From Desulfurellaceae bacterium bin18 (GTDB lineage: Bacteria > Desulfobacterota > Binatia > Bin18): a stretch of 64,000 bases of DNA. The translations under genes were made by a program, and so were the position numbers. The notes below the pieces were generated by a model that saw only the letters and a program-made list of their open reading frames with translations, was not told the origin of the DNA and made no database searches. Shown here piece by piece: positions 3,333 to 52,370 of this stretch (its first letter is position 1; every line of letters begins with the position of its first letter). The stretch is from the NCBI GenBank assembly GCA_002238415.1, contig MPMI01000027.1:1-64000 (forward strand), given 5' to 3'.

Positions 3333-4553
3333 TCACTCCGCCCGCTTGAGCACCCCCTCGCTTTCCAGCGTCCGAACCTGCTCCGGTGTATAGGACAAAT
3401 AGGTCGCAAGGACCTCTTCGTTGTGCTCGCCCAGGGACGGCGTCTCAAGTGGCAACTCGTTTGGAAATTCGGAGAACTTGAGCGGCATTCCCGGAATATC
3501 AAGTTCTCCAAACTCACGGTCAACTATCGTCCGGACGGTGCGTCGATAGCGCAGGTGGGGATGATTCACCGCTTGCTCTATGGTCAGAACCGGGGCAACC
3601 GGCAGACGCGCCTCTTGGAGGATACGAACCGCCTCATCGTCGCTCGCGGTTGAGGCCAACCAGCCTTCGATGACGGCGGCGACCTGATCCATATTTGCAA
3701 CCCGCTGGGCGTTGGATGAAAAACGGGGGTCGTCCGCCAACTCGGGACGACCTATGGCCTTGCACAGTGGTGCCCACTGATGGTCGAGCGCGATAATAAA
3801 GAGGTAGGTCTCTTTGCCTTTGAACAGCCCGATGGGACAGAGGGCGTAGTGCTGCGAGCCCGAGCGGATAGGGTTCACCGCGCCTTTGCTGCCGCTATAG
3901 ATCTGGACGTTCATCTCGTGGCAGTGGAAATAGGAATCCAGCAGGGAGATGTCTACATGCTGGCCCTTGCCGGTCCGTTCCCGATACAGCAGCGCACACG
4001 CAACAGCTCCCATCGCATGCACCCCCGTCCCGACATCCCCCAAGCCCAACATGGGAAACGAAGGCGCACCATCGGGATCGCCGATCATATGCGTCACACC
4101 CGCATAGGCTTGCGCAATATAATCATAGCCGGGTTGATCCGACAGTGGACCGGTTTGCCCAAAGGCGGAGACCGAACACATCACCAGGCGGGGATTGATT
4201 TCTTTCACCACATCATAGCCTAAGCCCAAACGCCCGATTGTTCCGGGTGCGAAATTCTCAACCAGGACATCGACCTGCTCCACCATCGCGCGCAGGATTT
4301 CCCTGCCTTTCGGACTCTTGGCATCAATACACAGGCTTTTTTTACCCCGGTTCTGTTGGATGAAATAGGCGCTCCGACCATCCTTGAGAAAGGGCATCGC
4401 CCGCGAAAAATCGCCTTTGGGCGCAAGCTCCACCTTGATAATCTCAGCGCCCATCTCGGCCATCAGCCGCGTCACCGTCGGGCCGGCCAGCACCTGCGTA
4501 AAATCCAGCACCTTGTAGCCGTCTAAAACGTGGATCAACTCTTCGTTCGGCAT
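3333..4553 (-). CDS. CaiB/BaiF class III CoA-transferase
   Basis: A 406-residue protein with the class III CoA-transferase fold. The N-terminus VLDFTQVLAGPTVTRLMAEMGAEIIKVE is diagnostic, as are the QNRGKKSL and NFAPGTIGRLGLGY motifs. The catalytic Asp that forms the aspartyl-CoA thioester falls in LGDVGTG. Such enzymes move CoA between acids and start catabolism of carboxylates such as oxalate, carnitine or aromatic acids. A strong GAGGAGG site precedes the start. The gene stands alone; a second family member lies at 48515-49711. The substrate cannot be read from sequence. Confidence 0.93.
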   Translation of the reverse strand: MPNEELIHVLDGYKVLDFTQVLAGPTVTRLMAEMGAEIIKVELAPKGDFSRAMPFLKDGRSAYFIQQNRGKKSLCIDAKSPKGREILRAMVEQVDVLVENFAPGTIGRLGLGYDVVKEINPRLVMCSVSAFGQTGPLSDQPGYDYIAQAYAGVTHMIGDPDGAPSFPMLGLGDVGTGVHAMGAVACALLYRERTGKGQHVDISLLDSYFHCHEMNVQIYSGSKGAVNPIRSGSQHYALCPIGLFKGKETYLFIIALDHQWAPLCKAIGRPELADDPRFSSNAQRVANMDQVAAVIEGWLASTASDDEAVRILQEARLPVAPVLTIEQAVNHPHLRYRRTVRTIVDREFGELDIPGMPLKFSEFPNELPLETPSLGEHNEEVLATYLSYTPEQVRTLESEGVLKRAE

Positions 4554-4687
4554 AGGCTCCTCCTCAATATGGCGTCACTCTATCCTGTCCGTTTTTGACG
4601 GAGCAAGTAGCGCACAGACTCGCCCTGCGCGCCGTCCTGAGCTAAGAGAGAATACAGGCACAGAACAGGCAGTACAGGAGGAAGCAC

Positions 4688-4978
4688 ATGTCAGCCTATA
4701 TTATTGTGGATGTTCAGGTGACCGACCCCGAGGTGTACGCCGGCTACATCAAACTCGTTCCGGCAACCGTTGAAGCCTACGGCGGGAAGTTCATCGTCCG
4801 GGGGGGAGCCGCCGAAAATCTGGAGGGCGATTGGGAACCCAACCGGGTGGTTGTGCTCGAATTCGAGAGCGTGGCCCAGGCCAAGGCGTGGTATAACTCG
4901 GAAGAGTACCGTGAGCCCAAGGGTATCCGGCACGGTGCCTCTCACGGGAAAATGATTGTGGTTGAAGGGGCATCGTAA
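4688..4978 (+). CDS. DUF1330 domain protein
   Basis: A 96-residue dimeric alpha-beta barrel type protein. The pattern AYIIVDVQVTDPEVYAGYIKLVPATVEAYGG followed by VVLEFESVAQAKAWYNSEEY is the DUF1330 signature. The family is related in fold to ferredoxin-like monooxygenase and EthD proteins but has no settled biochemical role. GGAGGAAGC supports the ATG. Six bases separate it from the RraA-like gene downstream, so the two are probably cotranscribed. Confidence 0.9.
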   Translation: MSAYIIVDVQVTDPEVYAGYIKLVPATVEAYGGKFIVRGGAAENLEGDWEPNRVVVLEFESVAQAKAWYNSEEYREPKGIRHGASHGKMIVVEGAS

Positions 4979-4984
4979 TCGCGT

Positions 4985-5479
4985 ATGCAATTCCTGACGA
5001 CAGATTTATGTGACACTCATCCAGACCTTGTCCGTGTTGTGGAACCACTGTTTACCAATTACGGCGGCAAGGTCTGTTTTGGTGGTGAGATCGTGACCAT
5101 AAAATGTCACGAGGATAACTCCTTGGTAAAAGAGAACGCCAGCAAGCCGGGACAAGGAAAGGTACTAGTCGTGGACGGGGGCGGCTCCATGCGACGCGCC
5201 TTGCTGGGCGATATGATCGCGGCCTCGGCACTCCGGAATGGCTGGGAAGGGTGCATCATCTATGGCTGCATTCGGGATATTGATGCTATCCGAGTGTTGG
5301 AGCTTGGAGTGCAGGCGCTCGGAGTCATGCCCCTGCGAACAGAGAAACGTGGCATTGGCGAGCTGGATGTTCCGGTCACGTTCGGGGGCGTCACCTTTCA
5401 GCCGGGTGAGTTTGTGTATGCGGACAATAACGGCATTATTGTGTCAGCCGAACCGCTTATCACGCCTAACGGGGGATAG
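4985..5479 (+). CDS. RraA-like protein (HMG aldolase/regulator of RNase E family)
   Basis: A 164-residue protein of the RraA family. The core [20 protein letters not shown], then [13 protein letters not shown], holds the conserved glycine loop, the GD pair and the RD pair that bind metal and substrate in 4-hydroxy-4-methyl-2-oxoglutarate aldolases. Family members act either as class II pyruvate aldolases or as RNase E inhibitors. In E. coli-like RraA the fold and length are the same, so the sequence does not decide. The catabolic surroundings favour an aldolase role. It follows the DUF1330 gene by 6 bp. Confidence 0.88.
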
Positions 5480-5485
5480 CTTGAT

Positions 5486-5505
5486 TTGCACATTCTCATG
5501 TGCAA
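5486..5505. promoter_or_regulatory. Perfect inverted repeat, likely VapB operator
   Basis: TTGCACAT, four spacer bases TCTC, then ATGTGCAA: 8-bp arms with no mismatch, ending 10 bp before the vapB ATG. VapB-type antitoxins bind such repeats through an N-terminal DNA-binding domain and autorepress with VapC. The role as operator is inferred from position and symmetry. Confidence 0.55.
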
Positions 5506-5515
5506 GTATCCGCAC

Positions 5516-5716
5516 ATGGCGACCAATTTGCAGATTGACAATAATTTAATGCAAGAAGCCTTGAGACTGGGCGGACATCGGACGAAGCGGGCAGTTGTTG
5601 AGGCAGCGCTCCGTGAGTATGTCCAGCACCGCAAACAAATCAAAATCATAGGGTTGTTCGGGACTATCGAGTATGACACCGGCTATGATTACAAAAGACA
5701 ACGGAAAAGAAAGTGA
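5516..5716 (+). CDS. vapB: VapB-type antitoxin
   Basis: A 66-residue protein starting at MATNLQIDNNLM. The N-terminal 45 residues form a ribbon-helix-helix domain (NLQIDNNLMQEALRLGG, then TKRAVVEAALREYVQ). The C-terminal tail, GLFGTIEYDTGYDYKRQRK, is the part that would plug the VapC active site. No clear ribosome binding site is seen, and an inverted repeat covers the leader. The last codon overlaps the GTG start of the next gene, so translation is coupled. Confidence 0.85.
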   Translation: MATNLQIDNNLMQEALRLGGHRTKRAVVEAALREYVQHRKQIKIIGLFGTIEYDTGYDYKRQRKRK

Positions 5717-6114
5717 AGGTCATCGTCGACACGTCAGTATGGTCACTGGCATTGAGACGTAATCGAAAACCAGATGTCCCACATGTAACGGTATTCCGAG
5801 ATTTAATCATTGACGGCCGGACCGCGTTATTAGGGGCCGTTAGACAAGAAATTCTCTCCGGGATTCGCCATGTTGATCACTTCGAACGGTTGAAAAATCA
5901 TCTTCGTGCATTCCCAGATATTGAGCTGAGCATAGAGGATTATGAGCTGGCATCGGAGTTCTATAACACCTGCCGGAGTAACGGCATTCAGGGAGCAAAT
6001 ACGGATTTCCTTATTTGTGCGGCTGCCGTGCGAAGGAGTTATGGCATTCTGACGACGGACAAAGACTTCCACATTTTTCGCAAACACATACCTATCGTTC
6101 TGGTGGAACCGTAA
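5713..6114 (+). CDS. vapC: VapC-type PIN-domain toxin
   Basis: A 133-residue PIN-domain ribonuclease. Acidic residues expected for metal binding are visible: D6 in VIVDTSVW, Glu in AVRQEILSG, Asp in GANTDFLICAAA, and Asp in LTTDKDF. It starts at GTG 5713, overlapping the antitoxin stop by GTGA, a typical coupled arrangement. VapC toxins usually cut tRNA or rRNA. Codon use is more AT-rich than in adjacent catabolic genes, which fits a mobile module. Confidence 0.92.
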   Translation: MKVIVDTSVWSLALRRNRKPDVPHVTVFRDLIIDGRTALLGAVRQEILSGIRHVDHFERLKNHLRAFPDIELSIEDYELASEFYNTCRSNGIQGANTDFLICAAAVRRSYGILTTDKDFHIFRKHIPIVLVEP

Positions 6115-6156
6115 GGGAGAGCCCCACTGAACTGCAGGTCAGCCAAAGGAGGCCCC

Positions 6157-6906
6157 ATGCTTATCGATCAACCCGACGGCAATTTCACCTTCATTAAAAG
6201 TAGCGGTCCTTTTTCTTCGGGCTGTCGGGCTCAGTCCGGCTATGAGGTGGCGCACGCTACCTTTCATCCGCTGCCGGCGCTGGAAAAAGGCTATGATCTG
6301 ATTGCACGTCATCTCCAGCAGTTCGGCCGGCCCATCCAGGCCCTGTGCGGTATGGAGCTGCGCATCCCGCAACCGCTCTCGCCCCAGGGGTTTGCCGAGT
6401 TCAATGAACCCTACGTCCAGCGGATTGCGGACTGGGGTGTCCTTGTTGATGGCCTCAACCCGACGGCGCGGACCAATGTGGCGCTGGCCGTCCACCCGGT
6501 TGCCGAGCCCTCGCTCTACGGGTTTTCCTACACCGTGCCCACAGACCACGACCGTCCCAGCTTTATGCTGTCCGGGGCGGCTGAAATCCAGCGGTCCGAA
6601 AAAGGAACTGAAATCGTCAGCCGCGGAGACGTGTCGCCGCAGGGTATCAGCCAAAAGACGCAGGCGGTGCTTGAGGTCCTGACGGACCGCTTACAGGAGT
6701 TCAGCCTCGCCTGGACCGATGTGACGGCCGTCGAGCTGTACACCGTTCACAATGCGTATCCGCTACTGGAAACGGAGATTCTGCCGGGTCTGGCGAGCGG
6801 GGGGCATCACGGCCTGCGCTGGCACTATGCCCGTCCGCCGGTCACCGAGGTCGAGGTCGAGATGGGCGCGCAGGGGGTCTATCAGGAGTTGGTCCTGCCG
6901 GGGTGA
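6157..6906 (+). CDS. Rid-like deaminase, possibly CnbZ-type
   Basis: A 249-residue protein with strong AAAGGAGG before the ATG. Recognisable parts are CGMELRIPQPLSPQGFAEFN, a central GLNPTARTNVALAV, and a C-terminal YTVHNAYPLLETEILPGL followed by LRWHYARPPVTEVEVEMGAQGV. The last block has the beta-strand layout of Rid-family proteins. The whole resembles proteins annotated as 2-aminomuconate/2-amino-5-chloromuconate deaminase CnbZ, recalled from memory and not searched. If correct it would release ammonia from an aminomuconate-like ring-cleavage product. It is a lone gene between VapBC and an accessory patch. Confidence 0.55.
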   Translation: MLIDQPDGNFTFIKSSGPFSSGCRAQSGYEVAHATFHPLPALEKGYDLIARHLQQFGRPIQALCGMELRIPQPLSPQGFAEFNEPYVQRIADWGVLVDGLNPTARTNVALAVHPVAEPSLYGFSYTVPTDHDRPSFMLSGAAEIQRSEKGTEIVSRGDVSPQGISQKTQAVLEVLTDRLQEFSLAWTDVTAVELYTVHNAYPLLETEILPGLASGGHHGLRWHYARPPVTEVEVEMGAQGVYQELVLPG

Positions 6907-16504: not shown

Positions 16505-16909
16505 CTAGGGTACGACAGCCATTGCCTCAACTTCGATCCGGACCTCATCCGAGACAAGCCGGGCTACTTGGACCGTGGCCGAGACCGGCGGCTCACTCGG
16601 CCAATACTCGTTCCGAACCTCTTGGATGGCCAACACATCGTCCATGTCTTGAATATAGACCGTCATTTTGACAACGTCGTTCAAGGTCGCACCGGCCTCG
16701 GCAAAGATCGCCCGCATCTGCTCAAAGATACGCCGTGTTTGCGCCTTCACATCGCCGGGGGCGACCGTATTCCCGTTTTCGTCTCGCGCAGTCATGCCCG
16801 TTGTAAAAACAAGGTCGTGCCCCGTAGGCACCTGGATCGCCTGCGCCCAAGGCCCGAACTCGCCTGGCCGCGACCAGAACGAGGTGTTCAGGATCTTCTT
16901 TGTGCTCAT
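16505..16909 (-). CDS. RidA-family deaminase
   Basis: A protein of 134 residues starting at MSTKKILNTSFWSRPG, chosen for GGGAGAG 6 bp upstream; a start at 16984 would add an unconserved tail. It has HDLVFTTGMTARDENG, QTRRIFEQMRAIFAEAG and VQVARLVSDEVRIEVEAMAV. R117 is in the position of the carboxylate-binding Arg of classic RidA, so deamination of a reactive enamine/imine is plausible. It is the first gene of the Hyu operon. The last gene of that operon is a second Rid protein in which the Arg is lost. Confidence 0.9.
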   Translation of the reverse strand: MSTKKILNTSFWSRPGEFGPWAQAIQVPTGHDLVFTTGMTARDENGNTVAPGDVKAQTRRIFEQMRAIFAEAGATLNDVVKMTVYIQDMDDVLAIQEVRNEYWPSEPPVSATVQVARLVSDEVRIEVEAMAVVP

Positions 16910-17130
16910 TGTTTCTCTCCCTGGTTCATCGGCGGTGTCCAGCACTTGAGACGCCGCACTCGTAACGCACCACTCCCGCGCCACCAGCCTGTATGGACCG
17001 ACATCTCCCCTCGCGCCTAAACCTTCTCTATTGGGATATCGGACATTTTCAGATTCGGCCGCATGGAATTAGTCAGTCAATGTGATGTACCACCCTCCGG
17101 AATCGAATTCGACGCTCACTGCGGCCATGT

Positions 17131-18174
17131 TCAGGTTCCGTTTATCACAGCTTCGGCCTGTCGAAGCTGATCCGTGACCCATCCGAAGTCCGGGGCCTCA
17201 CCGAGGATCATGCCCTGCATAGCTCGGTAGTCTTGTTCGATCACCGTGCGCAGTTCCGCTTGAGGAACCAGTCGCACCGATCCGGGAACCGCTTCTTCGA
17301 ACCGTTTCCAGGCCTGCCGGAACGCGACAAGGTTGTGGTTCCGAACCGCATCCAGCAGGTCGGTGTCGACCAAAGCCGACTGGCCGACTTCCGTCGCCGT
17401 GATCACCGCGACATCGTAGTAGTGACGCGAAACGCGGTCCTTATCAACCGGCAGGCGACCGTCATCCCGGTATCCGCAATGTGCGCCATGCAGGATCAGC
17501 AGCTTCTCCCAATAGGTGCGCTCGGGCGCGCTCACTCGAATGCCCGCCGAGGCGAACGACCAGTTCGGAAGCTCATCGGCGATGTAAGGCATAAGCGTGC
17601 AGTGTACGCAGGGGTCAAGCGCCGACTTGGCCCCCGCCTCGATCTTCACTCGTGGGGCCACATACGTGACGCCACCGCTGGGATAGAAGGTGGGGTACTC
17701 GATGAAGAGCGTCTGTCCATCAACATCGCCCTCATCCGGAACAACCTGACAGCCGGTGGAGAGTTCCTCGATCCGACTCGCCAGAACGGTCCGCAGGTCT
17801 CCACGAATATATCCGCTGCACGCCGCCCCGAGTTCCTTGAACAGCGCGGCCCGTTTCTTGTTCGACAGGTGGCTCGCTGCGGTCGGGTCGCGCTCCCCTT
17901 CGAAGCCCAGACCGTCGCGGAACACCACGAGATCGATGTCCTCCGAAAAGCGTTTGATGAGCCCGAAGGCCTTGGACAGCGACGTCCCGCCCTTGAAGAG
18001 TAGCTTCGGATGCCCCTCCGGCCGGCGGTTGAACAGCGCGTCGAGCACCAGGCAGACCCAGAAGTCCTTCTCAACGTAGCCCGGCAACGTATCGAGGCGA
18101 GCTGCCGCCGCTTCGAAGACATCGCGCCTGTCCTGCTCTGGCAGGGCAAGGAACGATTCAAAGCCACCGGTCAT
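17131..18174 (-). CDS. abiEii: AbiEii-type nucleotidyltransferase toxin
   Basis: A 347-residue type IV toxin of the AbiEii/AbiGii family (PF08843). The canonical motif KGGTSLSKAFGLIKRFSEDIDLV is at residues 61-83, with the metal-binding Asp pair at D79 and D81. Later blocks ERTYWEKLLILHGAH and KDRVSRHYYDV are also standard. The Salmonella/lactococcal relatives and MenT toxins transfer nucleotides to targets such as tRNA. Its ATG overlaps the antitoxin stop codon by ATGA when the antitoxin reading frame is corrected. The toxin frame is intact while the antitoxin frame is not, so either the sequence has an error or the toxin is inactive or silenced. Confidence 0.95.
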   Translation of the reverse strand: MTGGFESFLALPEQDRRDVFEAAAARLDTLPGYVEKDFWVCLVLDALFNRRPEGHPKLLFKGGTSLSKAFGLIKRFSEDIDLVVFRDGLGFEGERDPTAASHLSNKKRAALFKELGAACSGYIRGDLRTVLASRIEELSTGCQVVPDEGDVDGQTLFIEYPTFYPSGGVTYVAPRVKIEAGAKSALDPCVHCTLMPYIADELPNWSFASAGIRVSAPERTYWEKLLILHGAHCGYRDDGRLPVDKDRVSRHYYDVAVITATEVGQSALVDTDLLDAVRNHNLVAFRQAWKRFEEAVPGSVRLVPQAELRTVIEQDYRAMQGMILGEAPDFGWVTDQLRQAEAVINGT

Positions 18175-18879
18175 ACAGCAACGGCCTGATCACTCGCTAT
18201 GCTGCGCGCTAGCGGCAATGCCCAACCGGGCAGATCTCGGCTGTTGTGCAACAAGTTGAGCTTCACGTCGTCGGGAAGATGACGATTCAGCGTCGAGACG
18301 ACCTCTCCGTCCGCAGCCGCGCGGGGACCCAGCCAACGCAGGGCCTGAACCACCGCCGCGGCGGGGCGTCCCCCCCCCCCGCCGACGCCCGCACCCCGCC
18401 GCCGCGCGGGGCCCCAGCCAACGCAGGGCCTGAACCACCGGCGCGGCGGGTCTTCCCGCCCACTGCATGACGCTCGGACCCGCATGCCGGAACCGGACAG
18501 TCCTTCCGTCGATCTTGAGCGTCCTCGAGTGGCCGTCCGTCACGTAGCTGACCTTCGCGGGCACGGCATTGGTGAGGCCAAGCTGATTCGCGGCTACCAA
18601 GCCATCCGGCATGATCCGCACACCGTCCCGTCGTGCCAGCGCTGCAATGGCGGCATCCAGATCGACAGGCGCTGGCCGATTCAGCACGTTGCTGATCCGG
18701 GGCATGTCGTACAAGCCGTGGCCCACCCGGCGCAGCCGTCCCGCCTTGACGAGACGAGACAAAGCCTGGTCGATGGCCTCGCGGCTGCCGAGGTCCAGGA
18801 AGTCTCTGGGCGTGCACACCCAGCTTCCGCTATCGTGGGCGGACACCCTTTGCCTGATCTTGTCGGCGATTCCAGTCAT
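18171..18879 (-). pseudogene. abiEi: AbiEi-type antitoxin, frameshifted
   Basis: The N-terminal part reads IADKIRQRVSAHDSGSWVCTPRDFLDL, a winged-helix domain with QALSRLVKAGRLRRVGHGLYD, then VAANQLGLTNAVPAKVSYVTDG: a standard AbiEi/DUF6088 antitoxin. After PVVQALRWLGPRAAA the frame breaks into Arg/Gly-rich junk. The expected C-terminus (DGEVVSTLNRHLPDDVKLNLL, ending SDQAVAV) lies in another frame and stops at 18171, overlapping the toxin ATG. An 85-bp near-duplication, which is not a multiple of three, explains the break; removing it restores about 207 residues. It may be a true mutation or an assembly fault. Confidence 0.85.
18311..18452. repeat. 85-bp-period duplication with C11 tract
   Basis: Two copies of about 55 bp, around 18313-18367 and 18398-18452, differ at only a few bases and lie 85 bp apart. 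Each holds CCAGCCAACGCAGGGCCTGA. Between them is a run of 11 C (18370-18380) and very GC-rich sequence. The event lies inside the AbiEi antitoxin and shifts its frame. Confidence 0.85.
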
Positions 18880-18928
18880 TGGATCACGTTCATTGCGTTC
18901 GGATGTCTCTTGGTGCGTGTGTCAGAAA

Positions 18929-18955
18929 TCTATACTATTTATCTTACTATATCAA
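18929..18955 (-). promoter_or_regulatory. Possible promoter of the AbiE operon
   Basis: On the minus strand TTGATA (18955-18950) and TATAGA (18934-18929) are spaced by 15 bp, 50 bp before the antitoxin ATG, in the only AT-rich stretch of this region. The spacing is short for sigma-70, so this is tentative. Confidence 0.3.
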
Positions 18956-19069
18956 GGATGCCGTCTTCCGGCGAGAGTTCCGGGTCAGCCCAGCCACGCC
19001 CAGAGTGACGAACGCCGGCTCACCGAGGCTTCCAGGTCCAGGCTGGGCAGGAAGCGGCCCCTGCTCCCG

Positions 19070-20881
19070 TTACTTGCCGAGCTGCTCGCGTAGCTCTCGC
19101 GTGGCCTCTTGGTCGATAGCGAGCGTTCCATCCTCGATACTACCGGTCAGGACAACTCCATACGCGACTCGTGCCTGCTCGACCGACACCCAGCGTTCAA
19201 GGACGTCACGACGGACATCTTCCGGATTACGCTCGGTCGGCGGACCATAACCGCCGCCGCCACAGTCCCGGTAGCGTATGAGCTCACCAGGCAGCAGGTC
19301 TCCGGTAAAGATGTTCGGCAACGGAATCTCGTTCCCGTCCCGGTCGATCTTCATTGCCCAGGCCTTACTGCCCGCCTGACCGCCCCGCACACCTTTGGCC
19401 GGAGTCTCGTAGCCTTCCATAGGAAAGGTACAGGTCACGGGGTCGCCTTTCGGACCGTATTCCGCTTCAATCGCAGGCGCGCCCCGAAACCGTCCCGGTC
19501 CACCACTGTCCTGGGCTAATTTTTCAGACTTTACGAACAACGGGTACTTCTGTTCGTCGATCTCAACGCTGTCCCGGTACAAGAGGCCCGAGATGACGGC
19601 AATACCGTAGGTCACCCAGCCGTCGCACACAGGAGAAGCCGGCCCGCCATTGCCCCCCAGGATGAGTTGGTTGACGTAGGCAGCACCGTTGCGCCGCGTG
19701 TCCGTACCCGAGATAACTGCATAGCCCGCGTTTTGGGCAACCCCGCCTTCCGCAGTGCCCCAGCCATCACCGAGTTCGGCAAAGGCCGACTGGGTGATGC
19801 CCACCAGCCGGTTGGCCGGATTCGTGGTCGCGAGTGAACAAGAATGCGGAAAGCGCGGAATACCGGCCACACACCCTTCTCGCAGCTTGACGTGTATACG
19901 CCGGAAGCTGCCGGCATTGTGGGGTACGTCAGGGTCCAACGCGCTAAAGATGCCTTGCATGACGCTCGATATCGAACATGCCTCCGACGAGTTCGCCCCG
20001 CCGGCAACGTTGTCCGGGTTGTCGCGGAGGTCGACTTCAATCCGACCATCCTGCGTATCGATAGCAATTGCGACCTTGAGCGGCAGGCCATCGGGCAGAC
20101 CTGGAAACGGGTCGTGCCGACCAGTCCCGATCACGTCGCCACTTGGCAGCTGCCGGATGGCGTGTATCATCCGCCGTTCCGAATAATCCAACCACTCGTG
20201 AACAAATGTCTTGATCGTCTCGGATCCGTACTTTGCGACAAGGTCCTGAATCTTGCGCTCACCAACCCGGGCCGCGCCTACCATCGCCAGATAGTCACCA
20301 TACCACTGCTCGGGAACGCGGATGCGCCGGCGACACAAGCGGATAATGTCTTCGACATCTGCGTAAGCGCGTTGAACGCGGACGCAGGGGAAGAGCAAGG
20401 CACCCTCTTCGTATACGTCGCGCGCAGCCGGCATATACGAGGTAGGCAAAGCGTTGCCGATATCGGACAGGTGGGCCTTCGCAACCGCCGTGAAAAGATG
20501 CTGTCCCTCGCAGAAAACCGGCACGAGGATGGTGTGATCTGCGGGATGGGAGTTCCCCAAGTATGGGTCGTTATGCAAAAAGGCATCGCCCTCGGCAAGA
20601 TCGGGATGCAGCTCGCACATGGCCCGGGCCTGAAGATGAGAGCCATAGATATGAGCCGGCAGCCCTTCCGCTGCGGCCAGGAGCTCGTGCGGGCCAGTAA
20701 CACTGGTTGTGATTGAGCACGAAAAATCACGCGCAATACTGATCGCGGCTGAGCGGCCGGCCCGGAGCAGGGTTTGGGTCATCTCACGCACGATCGCTTC
20801 AAATCGATTTGCCAGCACGGCGAGCAAGGTCGGATCAAGCGTTGTCTTCTGCACCTCTCGACTGTGTGTCTGCGCTGCCAT
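19070..20881 (-). CDS. Hydantoinase B/oxoprolinase-type subunit (HyuB-3)
   Basis: A HyuB-family protein of 603 residues from the ATG at 20881, which has AAAGG upstream; an ATG at 20899 would add six residues. Key blocks are EGDAFLHNDPYLGNSHPADHT, AKAHLSDIGNALPTSY, GRIEVDLRDNPDNVAGGANSSE, and the end RYRDCGGGGYGPPTERNP. The Asp-rich and GGGG motifs are intact. The expected Gly-Gly after 'NDPY' is LGNSH, a sub-family variation. It follows HyuA-2 by a short gap, forming a two-gene unit separate from the RidA-flanked operon. Confidence 0.93.
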   Translation of the reverse strand: MAAQTHSREVQKTTLDPTLLAVLANRFEAIVREMTQTLLRAGRSAAISIARDFSCSITTSVTGPHELLAAAEGLPAHIYGSHLQARAMCELHPDLAEGDAFLHNDPYLGNSHPADHTILVPVFCEGQHLFTAVAKAHLSDIGNALPTSYMPAARDVYEEGALLFPCVRVQRAYADVEDIIRLCRRRIRVPEQWYGDYLAMVGAARVGERKIQDLVAKYGSETIKTFVHEWLDYSERRMIHAIRQLPSGDVIGTGRHDPFPGLPDGLPLKVAIAIDTQDGRIEVDLRDNPDNVAGGANSSEACSISSVMQGIFSALDPDVPHNAGSFRRIHVKLREGCVAGIPRFPHSCSLATTNPANRLVGITQSAFAELGDGWGTAEGGVAQNAGYAVISGTDTRRNGAAYVNQLILGGNGGPASPVCDGWVTYGIAVISGLLYRDSVEIDEQKYPLFVKSEKLAQDSGGPGRFRGAPAIEAEYGPKGDPVTCTFPMEGYETPAKGVRGGQAGSKAWAMKIDRDGNEIPLPNIFTGDLLPGELIRYRDCGGGGYGPPTERNPEDVRRDVLERWVSVEQARVAYGVVLTGSIEDGTLAIDQEATRELREQLGK

Positions 20882-20906
20882 CCGTACTGCCTTTCTCATA
20901 CGTCAG

Positions 20907-52014: not shown

Positions 52015-52274
52015 ACACATTCGCGCTCCACCGCAGCGTGATGTGCTGTGCTCTCGCGCGGCACCCCTCCCGAGCGGAAATGACGATTTTCTGTTTGGCC
52101 TCAAAGCCGGGCTGCTGAATCGCTCTTGACCGCTGAGGCGGAGCGCCCCCCTCCCTGGCCCTCCCCCTCAGCGGGGGGAGGGACAATCTGCTCCCTCTCC
52201 CCTGGAGGGAGAGGGCTGGGGTGAGGGGGAACAAGCAAACTGAACCACGACCCAATCGTGGAATGACTTTACAA

Positions 52275-52340
52275 TACGGTAGGCAGGTACTAGAAGGTGA
52301 ATTGCCATACGGTAGGCAGGTACTAGAAGGTGAATTGCCA
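52275..52340 (+). repeat. Two exact 33-bp tandem repeats
   Basis: Copies at 52275-52307 and 52308-52340. The period is 11 codons and the frame is that of the amidohydrolase gene, giving YGRQVLEGELP twice. Translation from ATG 52263 would add this to the N-terminus, but GGAGG before ATG 52371 is a better start. Confidence 0.8.
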
Positions 52341-52370
52341 TATGGACAGGTGATGCAGAAGGAGGCAACG

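Follow-up and report, generated by a model that had tools for sequence, protein, structure and literature searches.

Does this organism carry an intact AbiEii toxin next to a dead antitoxin, or has the antitoxin gene been broken only on the way from DNA to assembly? The question arises in the window, by which we mean the whole stretch of 64,000 nucleotides analysed here, part of genome G000 (5.24 Mb, 83 contigs). A sequence-only reading had found the antitoxin frame lost in an 85-bp near-repeat beside a run of 11 cytosines, and had offered three ways out: a fault of the assembly, a phase-variable tract, or a toxin that is tolerated in another way. The features on which the answer depends are the following:

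17131 to 18174, minus strand: AbiEii toxin gene, 347 aa, intact (Pfam AbiEii, PADLOC AbiEii; 98% identity in L034)
18190 to 18879, minus strand: N-terminal part of the AbiEi antitoxin, in frame as far as residue 161 and frameshifted thereafter
18171 to 18485, minus strand: antitoxin, C-terminal frame; about the last 66 residues and the stop, by comparison with L034
18311 to 18395, no strand: copy 1 of the 85-bp stretch, corrupted over its final 40 bases
18370 to 18380, plus strand: C11 run, within the corrupted half of copy 1; absent from L034
18396 to 18480, no strand: copy 2 of the 85-bp stretch, equal to the relative save for three differences

The toxin is intact, as the sequence-only reading had it: the gene is full length and matches AbiEii in both Pfam (E 1.9e-36) and PADLOC (E 4.2e-93). 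Its motifs, KGGT at 61 and RFSEDIDL at 75, give GG-x15-DID with the Arg in motif II; AbiEii (DUF1814) toxins are described by GG-x15-DhD and an Arg in motif II, and the two differ in the residue preceding GG, which is K in the window toxin and hydrophobic in the motif as published (PMC3985639). The antitoxin is divided between two frames. The N-terminal frame, read from 18879, carries DUF6088 over residues 7-157 (E 1.3e-30), matches PADLOC AbiEi (E 1.2e-53) and is collinear with the L034 antitoxin over residues 1-161 with one difference. The C-terminus had been placed in another frame overlapping the toxin start; it is found there, with a 4-nt overlap between its stop and the toxin ATG at 18174. 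Measured against L034, the two frames between them account for every one of the 207 antitoxin residues and encode about 20 twice. With the antitoxin complete in this sense, there is no need to suppose a toxin tolerated beside a dead one. With the AbiE type IV system as described (PMC3985639) the locus has in common a nucleotidyltransferase-like AbiEii toxin, an AbiEi-type antitoxin upstream and a 4-nt gene overlap; it differs in that the window antitoxin is DUF6088-type and is split in this assembly, though intact in the relative. Judged by sequence, the pair is most likely an ordinary AbiE type IV module.

L034, the near-identical relative, is the same locus from record OX638322.1 (Candidatus Binatia, single contig), and its DNA is 97-98% identical to that of the window. 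There the stretch occurs once, the C run is absent, and the antitoxin is intact at 207 aa and overlaps the toxin by 4 nt; a single unbroken antitoxin frame is therefore present in L034 and absent from this assembly. Among 16 family genomes searched, the window toxin was found in two, G000 itself and the single-contig genome G005.

The anatomy of the break can be described directly. The two copies are direct repeats with a spacing of 85 and 84% identity, and 28 consecutive bases are identical between them at offset 85; the antitoxin frame is lost because 85 is not a multiple of 3. The C11 run inside copy 1 is the sole C/G run of at least 9 in the whole window. When 300 random positions of the window were sampled, a duplicate of at least 20 bp lay nearby at six, three of which were the 85-bp repeat itself; the repeat is not due to chance. 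A hairpin as the trigger at this site was unsupported (z -1.43). Elsewhere in the window, at 52274-52342, a 33-bp unit is repeated 2.1 times with zero mismatches.

The differences between the copies are of one kind and lie in one place. In the flanks compared with the relative (1180 and 395 bp) there are 23 differences of mixed kind, ten of them to C or G. Within the repeat, one difference from the relative belongs to the strain, since it is common to both copies, and the remaining 14 are specific to a copy: 12 in copy 1 and two in copy 2. Copy 2 thus departs from L034 only by the strain difference and by its own two, both located within its bases 1-17. Every one of the 14 is a change to C or G (in the flanks 10/23; Fisher p 3.5e-4), and they are confined to the neighbourhood of the join: those of copy 1 lie no more than 40 bases to its left, those of copy 2 no more than 17 to its right. 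In copy 1 the dense cluster begins at the last base of CGGCGGGT, with one isolated difference 10 bases earlier; seen from the opposite strand, both differences of copy 2 are T>G changes, one immediately preceded by GGG and the other by GGC. Published Illumina context-specific error sites include NGGCGGGT, GGCGGGGT and GGGT, and GGC is likewise discussed as an error context (PMC3622629). The window agrees with that account in the contexts concerned: CGGCGGGT for the onset of the dense cluster, GGG and GGC for the opposite-strand reading of copy 2. It departs from the errors described there in the outcome, here a probable false duplication in an assembly. The error motif alone would be insufficient, because the window, counting both strands, contains NGGCGGGT 14 times, mostly harmlessly. 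Taken together, the differences look like miscalls, each side appearing to deteriorate toward the join in the manner expected of the ends of two reads or contigs.

Comparable sites exist elsewhere in the same assembly. G000 has 50 C/G runs of at least 9, 21 of them of at least 11 and the longest of 38, against 33, two and 11 in G005; a run of 11 is by itself not odd, as the relative has two of that length. The runs of G000 group into 41 places, seven of which are no further than 600 bp from the end of a contig, an over-representation (p 1e-5). Four of the 40 places other than the window's were checked against the six other genomes of the genus, and extra sequence was found at two. At L146 (C62), G000 is 75 bases longer than each of the five genomes, out of six, that have a match, and one stretch found in the relatives (24 bases in three aligned loci) is matched twice in G000. 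At L141 (C46), the alignment breaks in all six genomes and G000 has 64-97 additional C-rich bases relative to three aligned loci. These two sites probably represent the same kind of fault as the window repeat. Of the other two, L117 loses its match to the relatives about 50 bp before the run, with a dispersed repeat beyond, and L126 has a partial match in only one of the six genomes. Comparing the assembly with itself gave duplicates of at least 20 bp near the run at six of the 41 places, the window's included, by a method weak enough to have missed the L146 duplication; at least one of these, L122, is a coding repeat. The extra stretches at L146:1021-1088 (G- or C-rich, in C62 of G000) and L141:963-1036 (likewise, in C46) are absent from the relatives.

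We therefore hold, with high confidence, that the assembly created the 85-bp repeat as a false tandem duplication and that the AbiE operon of the organism is ordinary. Of the three original ways out, the assembly fault is the one strongly supported, by the single-copy L034, the one-sided spectrum of differences and the similar sites in the assembly. As the cause we infer read errors followed by a failed overlap. The antitoxin gene contains a GC-rich spot at which the sequence arriving from either side would have degraded into miscalled C and G; two ends that truly overlap by 85 bp would then have ceased to look alike, and would have been joined end to end because the errors hid their overlap. 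The stretch would thus be present twice, with the C11 run in the corrupted second half of copy 1. The organism itself would most likely carry the stretch once, within an unbroken AbiEi gene that belongs to an ordinary AbiE type IV operon.

The alternative that survives best, and it is still very unlikely, takes the assembly as it stands: a real and recent 85-bp tandem duplication would have split the antitoxin, and the toxin would either not be expressed or be tolerated, perhaps because the C-terminal part continues to be produced. Some substance is lent to this by Streptococcus agalactiae, where the C-terminal domain of AbiEi is reported to be enough for antitoxicity (PMC3985639). Fresh copies would be identical, however, whereas these carry 14 differences packed around the join, each of them to C or G, and the assembly has comparable faults at other sites. 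The narrower version, in which the duplication is real in the population and the split antitoxin is tolerated since a C-terminal product persists and keeps the toxin neutralised, is a shade less probable again.

That the C tract switches the antitoxin on and off by phase variation, the second of the original ways out, could draw on the position of the C11 run within the antitoxin frame. The wider family of toxin loci bears on this: among the 79 loci that were the best kept from 371 confirmed toxin relatives in named genomes, a C/G run of at least 9 within 750 bp upstream of the toxin occurs in none, three of the 79 being loci without that upstream DNA. The tract is missing from L034 and from copy 2 as well, and no gain or loss of cytosines in the run would remove the 85-bp duplication. 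With relatives that do without the tract, phase variation was rejected; we consider it exceedingly improbable. Just as improbable is that the repeat is false because two strains from a single population were fused in the assembly. The 83 contigs and an estimated contamination of 2.08% speak for such a fusion; against it, both copies carry the one strain difference outside the corrupted parts, and differences between strains would be expected to include changes other than those to C or G.

In the same set of best-kept loci, an antitoxin-like frame ends at the toxin start in 74 of 79. The five without one are L069, L072 and L099, whose upstream DNA is missing, cut by contig ends; L104, which matches toxin residues 196-347 only; and L088, where a broken AbiEii relic (930-1394), N-terminal part only and with no antitoxin upstream, lies behind a VWA-domain gene. 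The toxins of L034-L042 are 80-98% identical to that of the window, and their genomes are labelled Binatia, Latescibacterota, Gemmatimonadota, Bryobacterales and Terriglobia, a distribution that may reflect either spread between phyla or misbinned contigs.

The AbiE pair itself sits on a small island (window about 16936-19059). To its left lies an L-PSP/RidA-like gene (16505-16984, PF01042) and to its right a gene at 19070-20899 that we take to be hydantoinase-like. Among the other six genomes of the genus, three (G002, G003 and G004) contain about 50-70 bp at this locus in place of the AbiE pair, and G005 carries the pair together with about 2.1 kb of further sequence; in G001 only the right flank matches, and in G006 no match was found at the island locus. 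L034 carries extra cargo beside the toxin (4120-6215), with frames of 111 and 403 aa that have no Pfam match at E 0.01.

The "broken" antitoxin thus probably describes the assembly and not the organism. The case is also a warning: short false duplications driven by read errors can create orphan toxins and broken antitoxins in draft assemblies. Among the papers on false duplications that a literature search listed, most dealt with large eukaryote assemblies. A simple test can be put to tandem near-repeats, namely whether every copy-specific difference is a change to C or G and whether these changes gather where the copies meet.
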